The notes under the pieces: generated by a model | Database searches by the model: none | What the model was told of the DNA's origin: nothing | Seen by the model: the letters and a program-made list of their open reading frames with translations, nothing else | Position numbers and translations under genes: made by a program | In this document: piece after piece, positions 43,249-49,407 of the stretch | Layout of the letters: every line of letters begins with the position of its first letter | Position numbering within the stretch: position 1 is the stretch's first letter | NCBI RefSeq assembly: GCF_900115705.1 | Contig: NZ_FOXL01000002.1 | Coordinates: 496,001 to 560,000 of the forward strand | DNA: 64,000 bases | Source: Frateuria terrea | Lineage (GTDB): Bacteria > Pseudomonadota > Gammaproteobacteria > Xanthomonadales > Rhodanobacteraceae | Reading direction: 5' to 3'

Positions 43249-44517
43249 ATGCCACACCGGCACGCCAGCCGCCGCATCGGCCCCTTCGCGCTCACACGCA
43301 CGCTGGCCTGGCTGCGTCTGTGCGCGATCGCCGGGCAGAGCGTCGCCGTGCTGGTCTGCGCGCTGTGGATGCACTTGGCCATCCCGCTGCTGCCACTGCT
43401 GACAGGCGTGGGCGCGCTGGCGGTGTTCGCGGTTTTCGCCGCCTGGCGGCTCGGCCAGCCATGGCCGGTGCGCGAATGGGAAACCATCGGGCACGTCGCC
43501 GTCGACACGCTGGTGCTGGGCTACCTGCTGTATTTCACCGGCGGTGCCAGCAATCCCTTCGTCACCTTGCTGCTGGTGCCGATCGCACTCTCCGCGGCGG
43601 CGCTCTCCGTGCCGGCGGTACTCGCCGTCGCCGCGTTGGCCGGCATCGCCTACCTGCTGCTGCTCTACCGCTACGTGCCGCTGCCGCTGCCCATGCATGG
43701 CGGTGGCTTTCCGCTGCACGTCCTGGGCATGGGGGTGAACTTCGTGATCACCGCGCTGCTGATGGCCTTCTTCATCAACCGGCTGGCGCGCGCGTTGCGC
43801 ATGCAGCAGCTGGAAGTGCAGCGGGTACGCGAGCGAGCGCTGCGCGACGAGGGCATCCTCGCCATCGCCACCCAGGCCGCCGGTGCCGCACACGAGCTCA
43901 ACACACCGTTGGCCACCATGCGTACGCTGCTGCCGGAATTGCGCCGCGAGCACGCGCAGGATGCCGTACTGGAGGAAGACCTCGCGCTGCTGCAGGAACA
44001 GGTCGACCGCTGCCGCACCATCCTGCGCGAGATGGTTGCCTTCGGTCAGGCACAGCTCTCGCAGGAGGCCGAGCGAATGCCGCTGCAGGCATTCGTGCAT
44101 GGCTGCCTGGAACGCTTCCAGCTGTTGCGCCCGGAGGCCGAACTGGCGCTGGACCTGCCCGAATCCGCCGCGCGCCTTGAACTGCGCGTGCCGCCCGGGT
44201 TGCGCCACGCATTGATCAACCTGCTCAACAACGCCGCCGATGCCTCCGCGTCGTGCGATTCCAACGCGGTCGAACTGCAGATTCACTGTGGCCAAGGCTG
44301 GCTGGAGCTGACCGTGCGCGACCACGGTCCGGGCTTCGCCTCCGCGGACGAACCGGGCAGGCTCGGTCGCAGCGGCAAGCAGGGCGGCCTGGGGCTGGGC
44401 CTGGCGTTGGCCGAAGCCACTGCCGAGCGCCTCGACGGCGAGCTGACCGCCGGCAACACCGGGCACGGCGCGCAGGTGCGCCTGCGCCTGCCGCTGGCGG
44501 TGATCGGCGCCGGCTGA
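43249..44517 (+). CDS. regB: Redox-sensing histidine kinase, RegB/PrrB type
   Basis: The 422-residue kinase has six transmembrane helices (about 20-180) with the quinone-binding heptad TGGASNPF (97-104), an H box with His215 in AAHELNTPLATM, a conserved Cys255 in DRCRTILREM matching the redox-active Cys of RegB, and a GHKL ATPase domain. RegB senses the quinone pool and the cytosolic redox state and controls energy metabolism through RegA. The motifs and the adjacent RegA gene make this assignment firm. The regulon here is unknown. Confidence 0.92.
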   Translation: MPHRHASRRIGPFALTRTLAWLRLCAIAGQSVAVLVCALWMHLAIPLLPLLTGVGALAVFAVFAAWRLGQPWPVREWETIGHVAVDTLVLGYLLYFTGGASNPFVTLLLVPIALSAAALSVPAVLAVAALAGIAYLLLLYRYVPLPLPMHGGGFPLHVLGMGVNFVITALLMAFFINRLARALRMQQLEVQRVRERALRDEGILAIATQAAGAAHELNTPLATMRTLLPELRREHAQDAVLEEDLALLQEQVDRCRTILREMVAFGQAQLSQEAERMPLQAFVHGCLERFQLLRPEAELALDLPESAARLELRVPPGLRHALINLLNNAADASASCDSNAVELQIHCGQGWLELTVRDHGPGFASADEPGRLGRSGKQGGLGLGLALAEATAERLDGELTAGNTGHGAQVRLRLPLAVIGAG

Positions 44518-44603: not shown

Positions 44604-45182
44604 ATGACCGACGCCAATGCCTCCCGCCCGCTGCTGATCGTCGACGACGACGCTACCTTCGTCCGCGTGCTTTCCCGGGCGCTGGGCTCGCGTGGCTTCG
44701 AGGCGATCGGCGCCACCCGCGCCGACGAGGCGCGCGTGCTGGCCCGTCGCCACCAGCCGCGTTATTGCGTGCTCGACCTCAAGCTCGGCGAGGAGAACGG
44801 CCTGAAGCTGATCTCCGAGCTGCACGCGCTGGTGCCGGAGATGCGCATCCTGCTACTGACCGGCTATGCCTCGATCGCCACCGCCGTCGAGGCGATCAAA
44901 CGCGGCGCGCACGACTACCTGGCCAAACCGGTCGACGCCGATGCAGTGGTGCGCGCGCTGCTCGAGGGCGAGGGCCCCGCGTCGATCGACGACGAGCCGC
45001 CGGAGGCGCCCGAAGCACCGCTCGCGCTGCGCCGGCTGGAGTGGGAACACATCCAGCGCGTGCTGACCGAGTGCGACGGCAACATTTCCGAGACCGCGCG
45101 GCGGCTGGGCATGCATCGCCGCACGCTTCAGCGCAAGCTGGGCAAGCATCCGGTCCGCGAGCGGCCCGACACCGAAGGCTGA
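44604..45182 (+). CDS. regA: Redox response regulator, RegA/PrrA/ActR type
   Basis: The 192-residue regulator has a receiver domain (about 9-120; acidic DDD at about 14-16, phosphoacceptor Asp58 in CVLDLKLG, TGYASIATAVEAIKRGAHDYLAKP) and a Fis-type helix-turn-helix (about 140-180; ISETARRLGMHRRTLQRKLGK), the strongly conserved RegA DNA-binding end. It lies 86 bases after regB. It is directly upstream of the TonB-receptor/propeller/thioredoxin cassette, which may be among its targets. Confidence 0.93.
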   Translation: MTDANASRPLLIVDDDATFVRVLSRALGSRGFEAIGATRADEARVLARRHQPRYCVLDLKLGEENGLKLISELHALVPEMRILLLTGYASIATAVEAIKRGAHDYLAKPVDADAVVRALLEGEGPASIDDEPPEAPEAPLALRRLEWEHIQRVLTECDGNISETARRLGMHRRTLQRKLGKHPVRERPDTEG

Positions 45183-45295
45183 CGGACGCAAGGGCCGCCA
45201 GGCCGAAGCCGGCCTCTGGTGCAAACCGCACAGCGGCGGGCTTGATACACCACTCTGCGACAACGCGTCATCTGACCGTGCACATTGGCGCCGCT

Positions 45296-47575
45296 ATGCT
45301 GCGAAGCCTTGACCAACGTCCAGAGTTGACCGTGAAGCCCCGATCACCTGGCATCTGCGCACTCGTCCTGTTGGCCGCACCCGGCCTGCTGCATGCCGTC
45401 GACGCATCGCCGCAGACGACGACGCTTGCCCCGGTGATGGTCCATGCCAGCGACACCCACGTGACCGAGACGCCGGCCGTCAGCGTTCGCATCGACCGCG
45501 TGCAGCTGGACCGGCAGAACATCACCACCAGCGCCGACGCGCTGCGCTTCGCTCCCAACCTGCAGGTGCGCGAGCGCTACATCGGCGACCCCAACGCGAT
45601 CATCAGCGGGCGCAATGCCGGCACGTTGCAGAGTGCGCGCAGCCTGGTCTATGCCGATGGCCTGCTGCTTTCCAACCTGATGACCAACGGCTGGGATGGC
45701 GCCCCGCGCTGGGGCATGGTCGCGCCCGGCGAGATCGGCGCGGTGGACGTGCTGTACGGCCCCTACTCCGCGCTCTATCCGGGCAACTCGATCGGCACCA
45801 CGGTGCTGATCCACACGCGCCTGCCACGGCAGCTCACCGCCAGCGCGAGCGTCCAGTTCATGAGCCAGGATTTCCGCGATGCCTACGGTGCCAGCGGTCA
45901 CTACGACGGTCGGCACGCTGCCGCCTCGCTCGGCAACAGGCAGGGGCGCTGGAGCTGGCTGCTCAGCCTGGACCGGCTGGACAACCATGGGCAGCCAATG
46001 CAGTACGCCACGGCCAAGCCCGGTGGCGACCCGGCGGCCGCGGTCGCCGTCGGTGGCGCCACGCTAGACCGCAATCCCAACGGCAGTCCCCGCCTGGTCT
46101 ATGGGGCGAACAGCATCGAGCACACCGTACAGAGCCAGGCCAAGCTCAAGCTGGGGGTCGAGCTGACCGATCGCGTGGCTGCGCTGTTTACGCTGGGCTG
46201 GTGGCACAACCACGCCGAGGACCGCACGCGCACCTTCCTTCGTGACGCCGATGGACAGGCGGTCACCGCCGCCACGATCAGCGCCTATGGCGGCACCTGG
46301 ACGTTGCCGCCCAGCGGCCTGGCGCCCACCGCCAACGAAGACACCCACCTGCTCTACGGCGCCGAGTTCAATGGCCACTGGTCCAACGACTGGCGCTGGA
46401 CCGCCGTGGCCAGCCATTACGATTTCGCCCGCGCGCTCGCGCACAGCGCCGCGCTGCCGCAGCAGACCGGCCCCGGCACGGTAGCCGACAACGCCGGTTC
46501 GGGCTGGGACACGTTGGACCTGCGCAGCTCCGGCCCACTCGGCGACACGCACATGCTCTACGCCGGCCTGCACGGCGACCGCTACGTGCTCGACTCACGC
46601 GTGCATGCTGCCGACAACTGGCGCGGCACCGCGGACGGCCCGCTGACGGGCGCCTTCGCCGGCCGCACGCAGACCCGCGCCGCCTACCTGCAGGATGTGT
46701 GGAGCTTCGCGCCGGCGTGGGCGCTGACGCTGGGCAGCCGCTGGGAACAGTGGCGCGCCTACGGCGGCCGCCGTAGCGATGCCGCCGGCAACGTGCGCTA
46801 CGCCGACCGCCGGCGCAGCGATCTTTCGCCGAAGGCTGCGCTCGAATGGGACTTCGCCCCGGCCTGGCAACTGCGGCTGGCCTGGGGCAAGGCGGTACGC
46901 TACCCGACCGTCGCCGAACTGTTCCAGGGCGCGATCTCCGCCAACGCCATCGTCGGCAACGATCCCAACCTCAAGCCCGAGCGCGACAACTCGGTCGACC
47001 TCACGCTCAAGCAGCTGCTCGCCCGGGGGCACTGGCGCGTATCGTTGTTCCAGGACCGCATCGCCGACGCGCTCTATACGCAGACCGACATCACCGTCAT
47101 CCCTATCGTCACCAACGTGCAGAACATCGACCTCACCCGTATTCGCGGCATCGAGGGCGAGCTGGCACTGACGGACGTCTGGACGTCCGGGCTCGATCTC
47201 ACGGCGAGCCTTGCCATCAACGACGCAAAGACCCTGCGTGACCGCCGCTACCCGCTGGCCGAAGGCAAGTGGTTCCCCCGCATCCCGCGGCTGCGCGCCA
47301 GCCTGTTCGCCGACTACCGTTTCGCGGACGGCTGGGACGCCTCGCTCGGCGTCCGCCGCTCTGGCCGCCAGTACGGTTCGCTGGACAACAGCGACTTCGT
47401 CGACACCTACGGCGCCGTCAGCGCCTTCACGGTCGCTGATGCCAAACTGCGCTGGCAGTTCGCCCCGCGCTGGACCGCTTCGCTGGGCGTGGACAACCTC
47501 ACCAACGCGCGCTACTGGGTCTACCACCCGTATGCCGGCCGCACCTGGGTCGGCAGCGTGCGCTGGGATCTGTAG
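45296..47575 (+). CDS. TonB-dependent receptor of the propeller/thioredoxin cassette
   Basis: The protein has 759 residues from ATG 45296. A GTG at 45332 (then KPRSPGICALVLLAAPGLLHA) gives a cleaner signal peptide and is a real alternative. After the signal come a TonB box-like TTLAPVMVHAS, a plug domain (about 60-180; ADALRFAPNLQVRERYIGDPN, DVLYGPYSALYPGNSIG) and a barrel ending in GSVRWDL. The C-terminal residue is Leu rather than Phe. No Fur box was seen upstream, and the gene is followed by a possible metal-binding propeller gene, so copper or another non-iron metal is a candidate ligand. That is inference. Confidence 0.88.
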   Translation: MLRSLDQRPELTVKPRSPGICALVLLAAPGLLHAVDASPQTTTLAPVMVHASDTHVTETPAVSVRIDRVQLDRQNITTSADALRFAPNLQVRERYIGDPNAIISGRNAGTLQSARSLVYADGLLLSNLMTNGWDGAPRWGMVAPGEIGAVDVLYGPYSALYPGNSIGTTVLIHTRLPRQLTASASVQFMSQDFRDAYGASGHYDGRHAAASLGNRQGRWSWLLSLDRLDNHGQPMQYATAKPGGDPAAAVAVGGATLDRNPNGSPRLVYGANSIEHTVQSQAKLKLGVELTDRVAALFTLGWWHNHAEDRTRTFLRDADGQAVTAATISAYGGTWTLPPSGLAPTANEDTHLLYGAEFNGHWSNDWRWTAVASHYDFARALAHSAALPQQTGPGTVADNAGSGWDTLDLRSSGPLGDTHMLYAGLHGDRYVLDSRVHAADNWRGTADGPLTGAFAGRTQTRAAYLQDVWSFAPAWALTLGSRWEQWRAYGGRRSDAAGNVRYADRRRSDLSPKAALEWDFAPAWQLRLAWGKAVRYPTVAELFQGAISANAIVGNDPNLKPERDNSVDLTLKQLLARGHWRVSLFQDRIADALYTQTDITVIPIVTNVQNIDLTRIRGIEGELALTDVWTSGLDLTASLAINDAKTLRDRRYPLAEGKWFPRIPRLRASLFADYRFADGWDASLGVRRSGRQYGSLDNSDFVDTYGAVSAFTVADAKLRWQFAPRWTASLGVDNLTNARYWVYHPYAGRTWVGSVRWDL

Positions 47576-47590
47576 ACGGAAGAAGCGACC

Positions 47591-48757
47591 ATGCGCCGAA
47601 CATTGCTCCTGTGGCTGTGCCTGACCGTTGCGCCGGTGCTGGCACACGAGCACATGACGATGGCGCAGGAGCCACCGCTCGGCGCCACCGCGGCGTTCGA
47701 CGCGCACGGCCGCCTGTGGCTGGTCGATGCCGGCGACGGCCACGTGCGCCTGCGGCACTCGGACGACCTGGGCAAGACCTTCAGCGCGCCCGTGCCGGTC
47801 AACGCCGCGCCCGAGCCGATCTATGCCGAAGGCGAGAACCGACCCAAGCTCGCCTTCGGCCCGCAAGGCGAGATCTACGTGAGCTGGTCGCAGCCGCGCG
47901 CCAGGCCGTGGACCGGTTTCGTGCGTTTCGCCCGTTCGCTCGACGGCGGCGCGCATTTCACCGCGCCGGTCACCGTGCACCACGACCGCGCCGAGATCAC
48001 CCACCGCTTCGACGCGCTGGCCGTGGACAGCAGCGGGCGCGTCGTGCTGGCCTGGGTCGACAAGCGCGACCAGGTCGCCGCCGAGGCGGCGGGCAAGCCC
48101 TATCTCGGTGCGGCGGTCTACTACACCTGGTCGAGCGATCGCGGCGCGCACTTCGAACCGGAACGCGCGCTCGCCCAGCACAGCTGCGAATGCTGCCGCA
48201 TTGCGCTCGCACGCACGCCGCAGGGAGGTGTCGCCGCGTTCTTCCGCGCAGTCTACGGCGACAACATCCGCGACCACGCCTATGCGGTGCTGCGCACCGA
48301 CGGGGGCACCAGCCATGCCGAACGCGCCACCTACAGCGGCTGGCACATCGCCGGTTGCCCGCACCACGGTCCGGGCCTCGCGATCGGCAACGACGGCACC
48401 CGCCACGCGGTCTGGTACGAGGCCAGCGGCAAGCCGACGATCTGGTACGGCCAACTGCAGCCGGGCCAGCGTGCCGCGCACGCACAGGCGATCGCCAGTG
48501 CAGGCGCCAGCCACGCGGACATCGCCGTACACGGCACTACGGTCTGGATCGCGTGGAACCAGGTCGATGCGCAGGGGGATGCACTGATGCTGCGCCACTC
48601 GGACGACGGCGGCCTGCACTTCGGCCCGCCTCGGGCGTTGGCGAACAGCACCGCGGCGGTCGGCTCGCCGCAGTTGCTGCTGCACGACGGCCACGCCTAT
48701 GCCGCCTGGAATACCGCGTCCGGCTTCCGCCTGCTGCCTGTGGGGGACGCGCCGTGA
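47591..48757 (+). CDS. Exported sialidase-fold beta-propeller protein with CxCC and CPHH motifs
   Basis: The 388-residue protein has a signal peptide (about 1-18, VAPVLA) after which the mature chain would start His-Glu-His-Met-Thr-Met. The body contains repeated BNR/Asp-box-like units (HSDDLGKTF, SLDGGAHF, SSDRGAHF, HSDDGGLHF), so it folds as a sialidase-like propeller. It lacks an obvious sialidase active site but has HSCECCR (His197, Cys199, Cys201, Cys202) and WHIAGCPHHGP (His252, Cys256, His258, His259). These look like metal or heme ligands. It follows the receptor by 15 bases with a GGAAGAAG ribosome-binding site and overlaps the thioredoxin gene by four bases. Confidence 0.85.
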   Translation: MRRTLLLWLCLTVAPVLAHEHMTMAQEPPLGATAAFDAHGRLWLVDAGDGHVRLRHSDDLGKTFSAPVPVNAAPEPIYAEGENRPKLAFGPQGEIYVSWSQPRARPWTGFVRFARSLDGGAHFTAPVTVHHDRAEITHRFDALAVDSSGRVVLAWVDKRDQVAAEAAGKPYLGAAVYYTWSSDRGAHFEPERALAQHSCECCRIALARTPQGGVAAFFRAVYGDNIRDHAYAVLRTDGGTSHAERATYSGWHIAGCPHHGPGLAIGNDGTRHAVWYEASGKPTIWYGQLQPGQRAAHAQAIASAGASHADIAVHGTTVWIAWNQVDAQGDALMLRHSDDGGLHFGPPRALANSTAAVGSPQLLLHDGHAYAAWNTASGFRLLPVGDAP

Positions 48758-49218
48758 AGCGCTGGCTCGCCCTCCTGCTGCTGATGCCGGCCATCGCGGC
48801 CGCCGGCTCGCTGAAGCCGCTAGCGGCGGCCGATGTCTCCGCCCTGCTCGCACCCCCCGCGCACGGCGAACGCCTGATCGCACTGTGGGCGCTGGACTGC
48901 GCCTATTGCGAACCCAACCTGCAGGCTCTCGCGCAGCTGCAGCAGGCGCATCCGGCGGCGATCGAATTGGTCACCGTCGCCACCGACGACATCGCCAATC
49001 TCGATGCCATCGAAAAGCGCCTGCAAGCCGCCGGCATGGCCGCCTTTCCCGCGCGCGCCTATGCCGATGCGACACCGGAGCGGCTCAACTACCTGATCGA
49101 TCCCGACTGGGGCGGGGAAACGCCGCGCGTGCTGGTCATCCGCAGCGACGGTTCACGCGACGGCTTCAGCGGCGAGCTGACGGCGAAGCAACTGCAAACC
49201 CTCGGACCGAAACCGTAG
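48754..49218 (+). CDS. Exported thioredoxin-like protein (TlpA-type)
   Basis: The 154-residue protein starts at GTG 48754, which overlaps the propeller gene stop (GTGA). It has a signal peptide (about 1-17, AIAAAG), a thioredoxin-like core with redox pair Cys49-x-x-Cys52 in WALDCAYCEPN, and a cis-Pro candidate in ETPRVLVI. It probably reduces disulfides or delivers electrons or metal in the periplasm. Its likely client is the Cys-rich propeller protein, since the propeller's CxCC motif must be kept reduced to bind metal. A terminator follows 67 bases after the stop. Confidence 0.85.
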   Translation: MKRWLALLLLMPAIAAAGSLKPLAAADVSALLAPPAHGERLIALWALDCAYCEPNLQALAQLQQAHPAAIELVTVATDDIANLDAIEKRLQAAGMAAFPARAYADATPERLNYLIDPDWGGETPRVLVIRSDGSRDGFSGELTAKQLQTLGPKP

Positions 49219-49314: not shown

Positions 49315-49407
49315 TGGCGGAGAGAGAGGGATTCGAACCCTCGATAAGGCTTTTGACCCTATACTCCCTTAGCAGGGGAGCCCCTTCGGCCTCTCGGGCA
49401 TCTCTCC
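49315..49407 (-). tRNA. tRNA-Ser, anticodon GCT
   Basis: The minus strand gives a 93-nucleotide class II tRNA with encoded CCA. The acceptor arm starts GGAGAGA, the anticodon stem is CTCCC/GGGAG with loop CTGCTAA (anticodon GCT), a long variable arm follows, and the T arm holds GGTTCGAATCC. It lies just downstream of csrA, as in many gammaproteobacteria. Confidence 0.96.

Follow-up and report, generated by a model that had tools for sequence, protein, structure and literature searches.

A TonB-dependent receptor, a cysteine-bearing propeller and a thioredoxin-like protein form a probable copper-acquisition operon in Frateuria terrea

The 64,000-nucleotide stretch of the Frateuria terrea genome analyzed here (the window; positions 496,001 to 560,000 of contig NZ_FOXL01000002.1, assembly GCF_900115705.1) carries a cassette of three genes which encode, in order and all on the forward strand, a TonB-dependent receptor, an exported propeller and an exported thioredoxin-like protein. 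The receptor gene is placed at 45332..47575 with a GTG start; an alternative ATG is found at 45296, and the GTG is the more likely start, as it gives a normal, clean signal peptide and the extra N-terminal residues are unaligned in a relative (locus L003). The stop codon of the receptor (TAG, 47573-47575) is followed by 15 bases and then by the ATG of the propeller gene (47591..48757), whose TGA stop (48755-48757) overlaps the GTG start of the thioredoxin-like gene (48754..49218). A sequence-only reading of this locus had described three tightly linked genes with this gap and this GTGA overlap, HSCECCR and WHIAGCPHHGP motifs in the propeller and a CAYC in the thioredoxin-like protein, and each of these is present in the sequence as described.

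The receptor matches the Pfam barrel (PF00593, E 1e-52) and plug (PF07715, E 4e-11) domains, both over cut-off, and its best sequence match among solved structures is the heme receptor PhuR. Two histidines, His426 and His744 (numbered from the ATG), are invariant across its family, and the family alignment contains no conserved cysteine or methionine. The confident AlphaFold model of the second protein (predicted local distance difference test score 87.7, predicted template modeling score 0.89) and Foldseek bear out the sialidase-type propeller fold proposed from the sequence; among PDB structures it resembles PLL-type lectins and sialidases most closely, with a probability of 1.00 at 8-16% identity. 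Pfam returned BNR_2 alone, at a sub-threshold score (E 1e-6, 28.5 bits against a cut-off of 31.4). Asp boxes are visible in the propeller sequence, the FRIP motif is absent from it, and a profile comparison with sialidases of the PDB gave E-values of 0.004 or worse. The modeled secondary structure (DSSP string) and the sequence repeats are consistent with seven blades, with seven inner strands and a conserved loop before each.

The cysteines of the propeller lie in two motifs, CECC (Cys199, Cys201 and Cys202; 48185..48196) in the loop that leads into the inner strand of blade 4 and CPHHG (48356..48370) in the corresponding loop of blade 5, in which Cys256 is invariant and both histidine positions are mostly His, Glu or Gln. 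The seven-residue stretches ahead of the inner strands are enriched in invariant positions (18 observed against 8 expected, p 2e-4), and propeller topology would thus place Arg84, His138-Arg139, CECCR and CPHH in a ring around one end, or mouth, of the central channel. The signal peptide read from the sequence predicts a mature N-terminus beginning with histidine (A|HEHMTM, window 47645-47665), which might form a further copper site. A His/Met-rich start of the mature propeller recurs among relatives.

The third protein is a TlpA/ResA-like thioredoxin with the CxxC motif CAYC (48898-48909) and a conserved DPxWxGExPR. A Pfam search with this protein alone gave nothing over cut-off; its structure model matches ResA, TlpA and CcmG, including the complexes of TlpA with ScoI and CoxB, and it combines the thioredoxin fold, the exported CxxC and the conserved proline loop of the TlpA/ResA group. 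By analogy, it is a putative reductant of the propeller cysteines.

A scan of a genome collection gave 20 loci. Matches were found in 16 genomes of a phylum sample of 299 (approximately 11 of them strong), in 78 of 196 genomes of the family Rhodanobacteraceae, to which F. terrea belongs, in 73 of 250 from the family to which one other match, gammaproteobacterial and probably beta-type, belongs, and in 6 of 248 from one alphaproteobacterial order. Linkage was counted over 91 distinct strong propellers, with adjacent genes placed by domain coordinates. The thioredoxin-like gene directly follows the propeller in all 91 and the receptor directly precedes it in 84, a co-occurrence that is not due to chance; in two other loci TonB/ExbB genes separate receptor and propeller, and at L048 DUF2946 and ExbB genes stand in front of the propeller. 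All intact homologues that align at these positions by hidden Markov model, down to approximately 25-30% identity, have Cys199, Cys201, Cys202 and Cys256, and no intact cassette homologue lacks the cysteine motif. The only cassette member without it is L141, with a receptor in four pieces and a frameshifted propeller: the motif is lost where the propeller gene is dead. The genome carrying L141 is small (1.7 Mb) and the cassette is decaying, with matches to the thioredoxin and to PCuAC persisting.

The receptor is less constant than its partners. In L092, L095 and L097 the propellers are 54-67% identical to that of L002, while the receptors have no or marginal similarity to the L002 receptor; in L136 the propeller is nearer to that of L052 and the receptor nearer to that of L002. 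The propeller and thioredoxin therefore form a constant core with an exchangeable receptor, and we infer that the propeller handles what all these receptors bring in rather than one particular carrier.

The genomic context of the relatives strongly supports copper, as the sequence-only reading had guessed, and none of the outcomes which that reading listed as refuting it turned up. Among 25 wide loci outside the Rhodanobacteraceae, copper genes stand beside the cassette in 16, of which 14 were found by local scan and two by inspection and Pfam (L140, with DUF2946, and L142, with CopC on the opposite strand). A crude chance model for the 14 of 25 gives 4e-24, a rough guide only, since the loci are not independent. 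The families identified in these operons are DUF2946 (PF11162), PCuAC, DUF1775/YcnI, CopC, CopD, ExbB and TonB; at L052 the order is receptor, propeller, thioredoxin, PCuAC, YcnI and CopC-CopD. The first position is taken by a DUF2946 gene in 12 loci of relatives. DUF2946 is CruR, a copper-responsive leader whose CXXC senses copper and which controls the downstream TonB-dependent transporter in Bordetella pertussis (PMC9426467). A DUF2946/CruR gene was found neither in first position nor elsewhere in the window; the F. terrea genome has one at C11:177434, unlinked to the cassette, and PCuAC and Sco genes at C8:623 kb, approximately 80 kb from the cassette and likewise unlinked.

Taken together, these observations make it probable that the three genes are a TonB-dependent copper-acquisition operon in which the propeller and thioredoxin handle the metal, and the TonB or ExbB genes inside some relatives' operons add to the case. 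As judged from its fold and from characterized copper transporters, the receptor would import a copper chelate into the periplasm. The propeller would take copper at the mouth of the channel through Cys199, Cys201 and Cys202 and Cys256 of the neighboring blade, together with conserved arginine and histidine residues, and its thiolates would hold the metal or reduce it to Cu(I). Copper destined for heme-copper oxidases could then be handed to chaperones of the periplasm, for instance PCuAC/Sco, with the TlpA-like protein re-reducing the propeller cysteines. Several observations weigh against this proposal. Neither in the window nor in the other scanned loci of the Rhodanobacteraceae does a copper gene adjoin the cassette, so that the copper link of the F. 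terrea cassette rests on homology; the copper-bearing loci are partly interrelated, with several from one genus each, and the chance estimate is thus optimistic; the receptor scores 34.7 bits against the OprC/NosA model TIGR01778 (cut-off 472); and the four cysteines of an exported propeller could form two disulfides.

The closest counterpart is the copper-regulated CruR-CrtA-CrpH operon of B. pertussis, in which, as in the cassette, a TonB-dependent transporter gene is followed by one for a copper-handling protein (PMC9426467, PMC12914433, PMC13038864). Chelated Cu(II) enters through CrtA (PMC12914433), and CrpH is a PepSY_TM protein and proposed copper reductase (PMC13038864). For both kinds of operon, DUF2946/CruR stands at the head in relatives and PCuAC can be present. 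As in CrtA, there are two invariant histidines and no conserved cysteine or methionine in the receptor family. The second gene of the Bordetella operon encodes a membrane, heme-dependent protein, whereas the cassette has a soluble cysteine propeller and a thioredoxin, and CruR heads the operon there, with none adjacent in the window. By analogy, propeller and thioredoxin would occupy the place of CrpH; a PepSY_TM gene follows CrtA receptors in >75% of loci, and here the next gene is the propeller in 84 of 91 relatives. The CrtA entries 9RVQ and 9RVX were not among the PDB matches of the receptor at 1e-8, in a copy of the database that may lack both.

The pcuABCDE operon of Bradyrhizobium japonicum is a copper-starvation operon with a TonB-dependent receptor, PCuAC and YcnI, as far as it is described where cited (Serventi 2012, cited in PMC8424229 and PMC12617631). 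L052 and L055 appear to have receptor, PCuAC, YcnI and CopCD in common with it, and insert the propeller and thioredoxin genes between receptor and PCuAC; the partial descriptions of pcuABCDE available to us name neither of the two. A CopCD-like protein, PcuE, reportedly belongs to this operon as well. TccA of Caulobacter vibrioides is a TonB receptor that feeds copper to the aa3 oxidase, with no propeller partner described (PMC12617631). OprC and NosA are copper transporters with distant barrel similarity to the receptor (E 2e-11), and membership of the receptor in the OprC family was ruled out, its score being far under the TIGR01778 cut-off. We know of no propeller-thioredoxin partner of OprC or NosA. 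A precedent for the thioredoxin is TlpA-ScoI-CoxB (PDB ID: 4txo, 4txv; PMC7558416), where a protein with this thioredoxin-like fold reduces cysteines of periplasmic copper sites. TlpA is anchored in the membrane and has Sco/CoxB as its targets, whereas the partner of the cassette protein would be the propeller. Nitrous oxide reductase and galactose oxidase are copper propellers with copper near the propeller axis. Their copper ligands differ, they have no CxCC, and no sequence relation to the cassette propeller was seen.

The alternative that fares best accepts that the operon acts on copper and takes the propeller cysteines as structural disulfides, with the propeller binding an organic chelator or docking proteins and the thioredoxin serving only as its folding isomerase. 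Exported cysteines often pair, thiol proteins help exported cysteine proteins, and the propeller shares its fold with sugar-binding lectins and with sialidases. We nonetheless consider this arrangement unlikely: within the propeller subfamily of the cassette the positions flanking Cys256 are limited to His, Glu, Gln and Asp and Arg227-Asp228 is invariant, which suggests a site; the vicinal pair Cys201-Cys202 is unusual in plain structural disulfides; and the variation of the receptor beside a constant propeller speaks against a chelator-specific binder. The cassette could also serve copper defense rather than uptake, with the propeller sequestering or detoxifying periplasmic copper, as the location of a distant subfamily B (CPVNG) in copper-resistance islands would suggest. 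The subfamily of the cassette, by contrast, accompanies TonB-dependent receptors, TonB/ExbB, CruR and PCuAC, all of them genes for acquisition or for oxidase assembly, and a defensive role is therefore rather improbable. Import of another metal or metallophore (iron, zinc or nickel), with the copper genes adjacent by chance or co-selection, is less probable again: TonB-dependent receptors mostly serve iron complexes and PhuR is a heme receptor, but genes specific to copper are found repeatedly, in several families of two classes, and nowhere in the window was there a Fur-box match with 3 or fewer mismatches. The absence of a Fur box had been used in the sequence-only reading as an argument against iron; the absence holds for the window and an iron/Fur reading was set aside on it, although it is weak evidence. 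Scavenging of carbohydrates by a lectin or sialidase supplied by a sugar receptor is barely credible despite the Asp boxes, the BNR_2 match and the Foldseek matches, given the missing FRIP, the low identity to such structures and invariant cysteines without a role in sialidases, and a sialidase/lectin identity of the propeller was rejected on motif and profile scores.

More distant CxCC propellers add to the case for copper. Annotated as 'sialidase family protein', these are found on Roseobacteraceae plasmids, in copper-resistance islands that also carry copper oxidase, azurin and P-type ATPases; in Methylomagnum one adjoins CopC, near amoCAB, and in Spirosoma one (CECC...CP) lies beside a DUF326 protein. 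Copper islands with a CxCC propeller were seen at L022, L145, L146, L147 and L149; recurrent members of some of these islands are L,D-transpeptidase and DsbA genes. We tentatively put forward the CxCC/CP propellers as a new class of copper protein with a wide distribution (Pseudomonadota, Verrucomicrobiota and Bacteroidota), a generalization about which we are less confident than about the operon itself: with a dedicated TlpA-like reductant, the cysteine-lined seven-bladed propeller might reductively strip copper from imported chelates, as a soluble, thiol-based counterpart of the heme-based PepSY_TM reductases. A third propeller subtype (CACC/CDCC with CPHIG/CPHVG) lies directly after a TonB-dependent receptor without a thioredoxin gene (L049:2454-6218, L091:6317-9802). 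An Opitutae metagenome-assembled genome has, besides a cassette-type propeller and thioredoxin, a second CxCC propeller of the CPVNG type (L018:168-2465, reverse strand), whose extra C-terminal domain has no Pfam match; by eye this domain looks CusF-like, a resemblance left unused as Pfam gave nothing.

In the open-licence literature we found no paper describing the propeller-thioredoxin pair, nor one linking a sialidase or propeller to copper uptake. The suggestion in the sequence-only reading that no such system had been described thus stands for this pair within those papers; it does not for TonB-dependent copper operons as such, which are represented by CrtA-CrpH, TccA and PcuABCDE. The cassette is probably an undescribed bacterial route for copper uptake and handling. 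It is an open question by what route Gram-negative bacteria obtain the copper for their oxidases, and how the metal comes off its carrier once in the periplasm (PMC12914433, PMC13038864). If our proposal is true, a family annotated 'sialidase' or 'exo-alpha-sialidase' becomes a named copper-handling module, with many annotations corrected, and the copper reduction step can be tested on two soluble proteins.

Upstream of the cassette, on the same strand, are genes for a RegB/PrrB/ActS-like redox sensor kinase with a GGASNPF quinone motif (43249..44517; NCBIfam ActS_PrrB_HisK, E 4e-65, below the equivalog cut-off) and a RegA/PrrA/ActR-like response regulator (44604..45182; ActR_PrrA_rreg, E 3e-58, below cut-off; Response_reg and HTH_8). 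The pair adjoins the cassette in most Rhodanobacteraceae loci and is a possible regulator outside the core cassette. Between it and the receptor gene lies a conserved intergenic element of 17 bp on the forward strand, TGCGACAACGCGTCATC = TGCGACAWCGYGYCATC (45256..45272), with two GCGNC units 8 bp apart. Its TGCGACA is the same in all 15 upstream regions that were aligned, also where regBA is not adjacent, and the element, a probable operator, is the sole exact copy in the genome. Degenerate GCG repeats have been put forward as a binding target of RegA/PrrA (PMC4263372). With the two GCGNC units, this leads us to consider control of the cassette by RegA through the element, which would tie copper uptake to respiration, as a lead rather than a result. 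Directly downstream of the cassette, and convergent with it, is a tRNA-Ser(GCT) gene (window 49315-49407, reverse strand).

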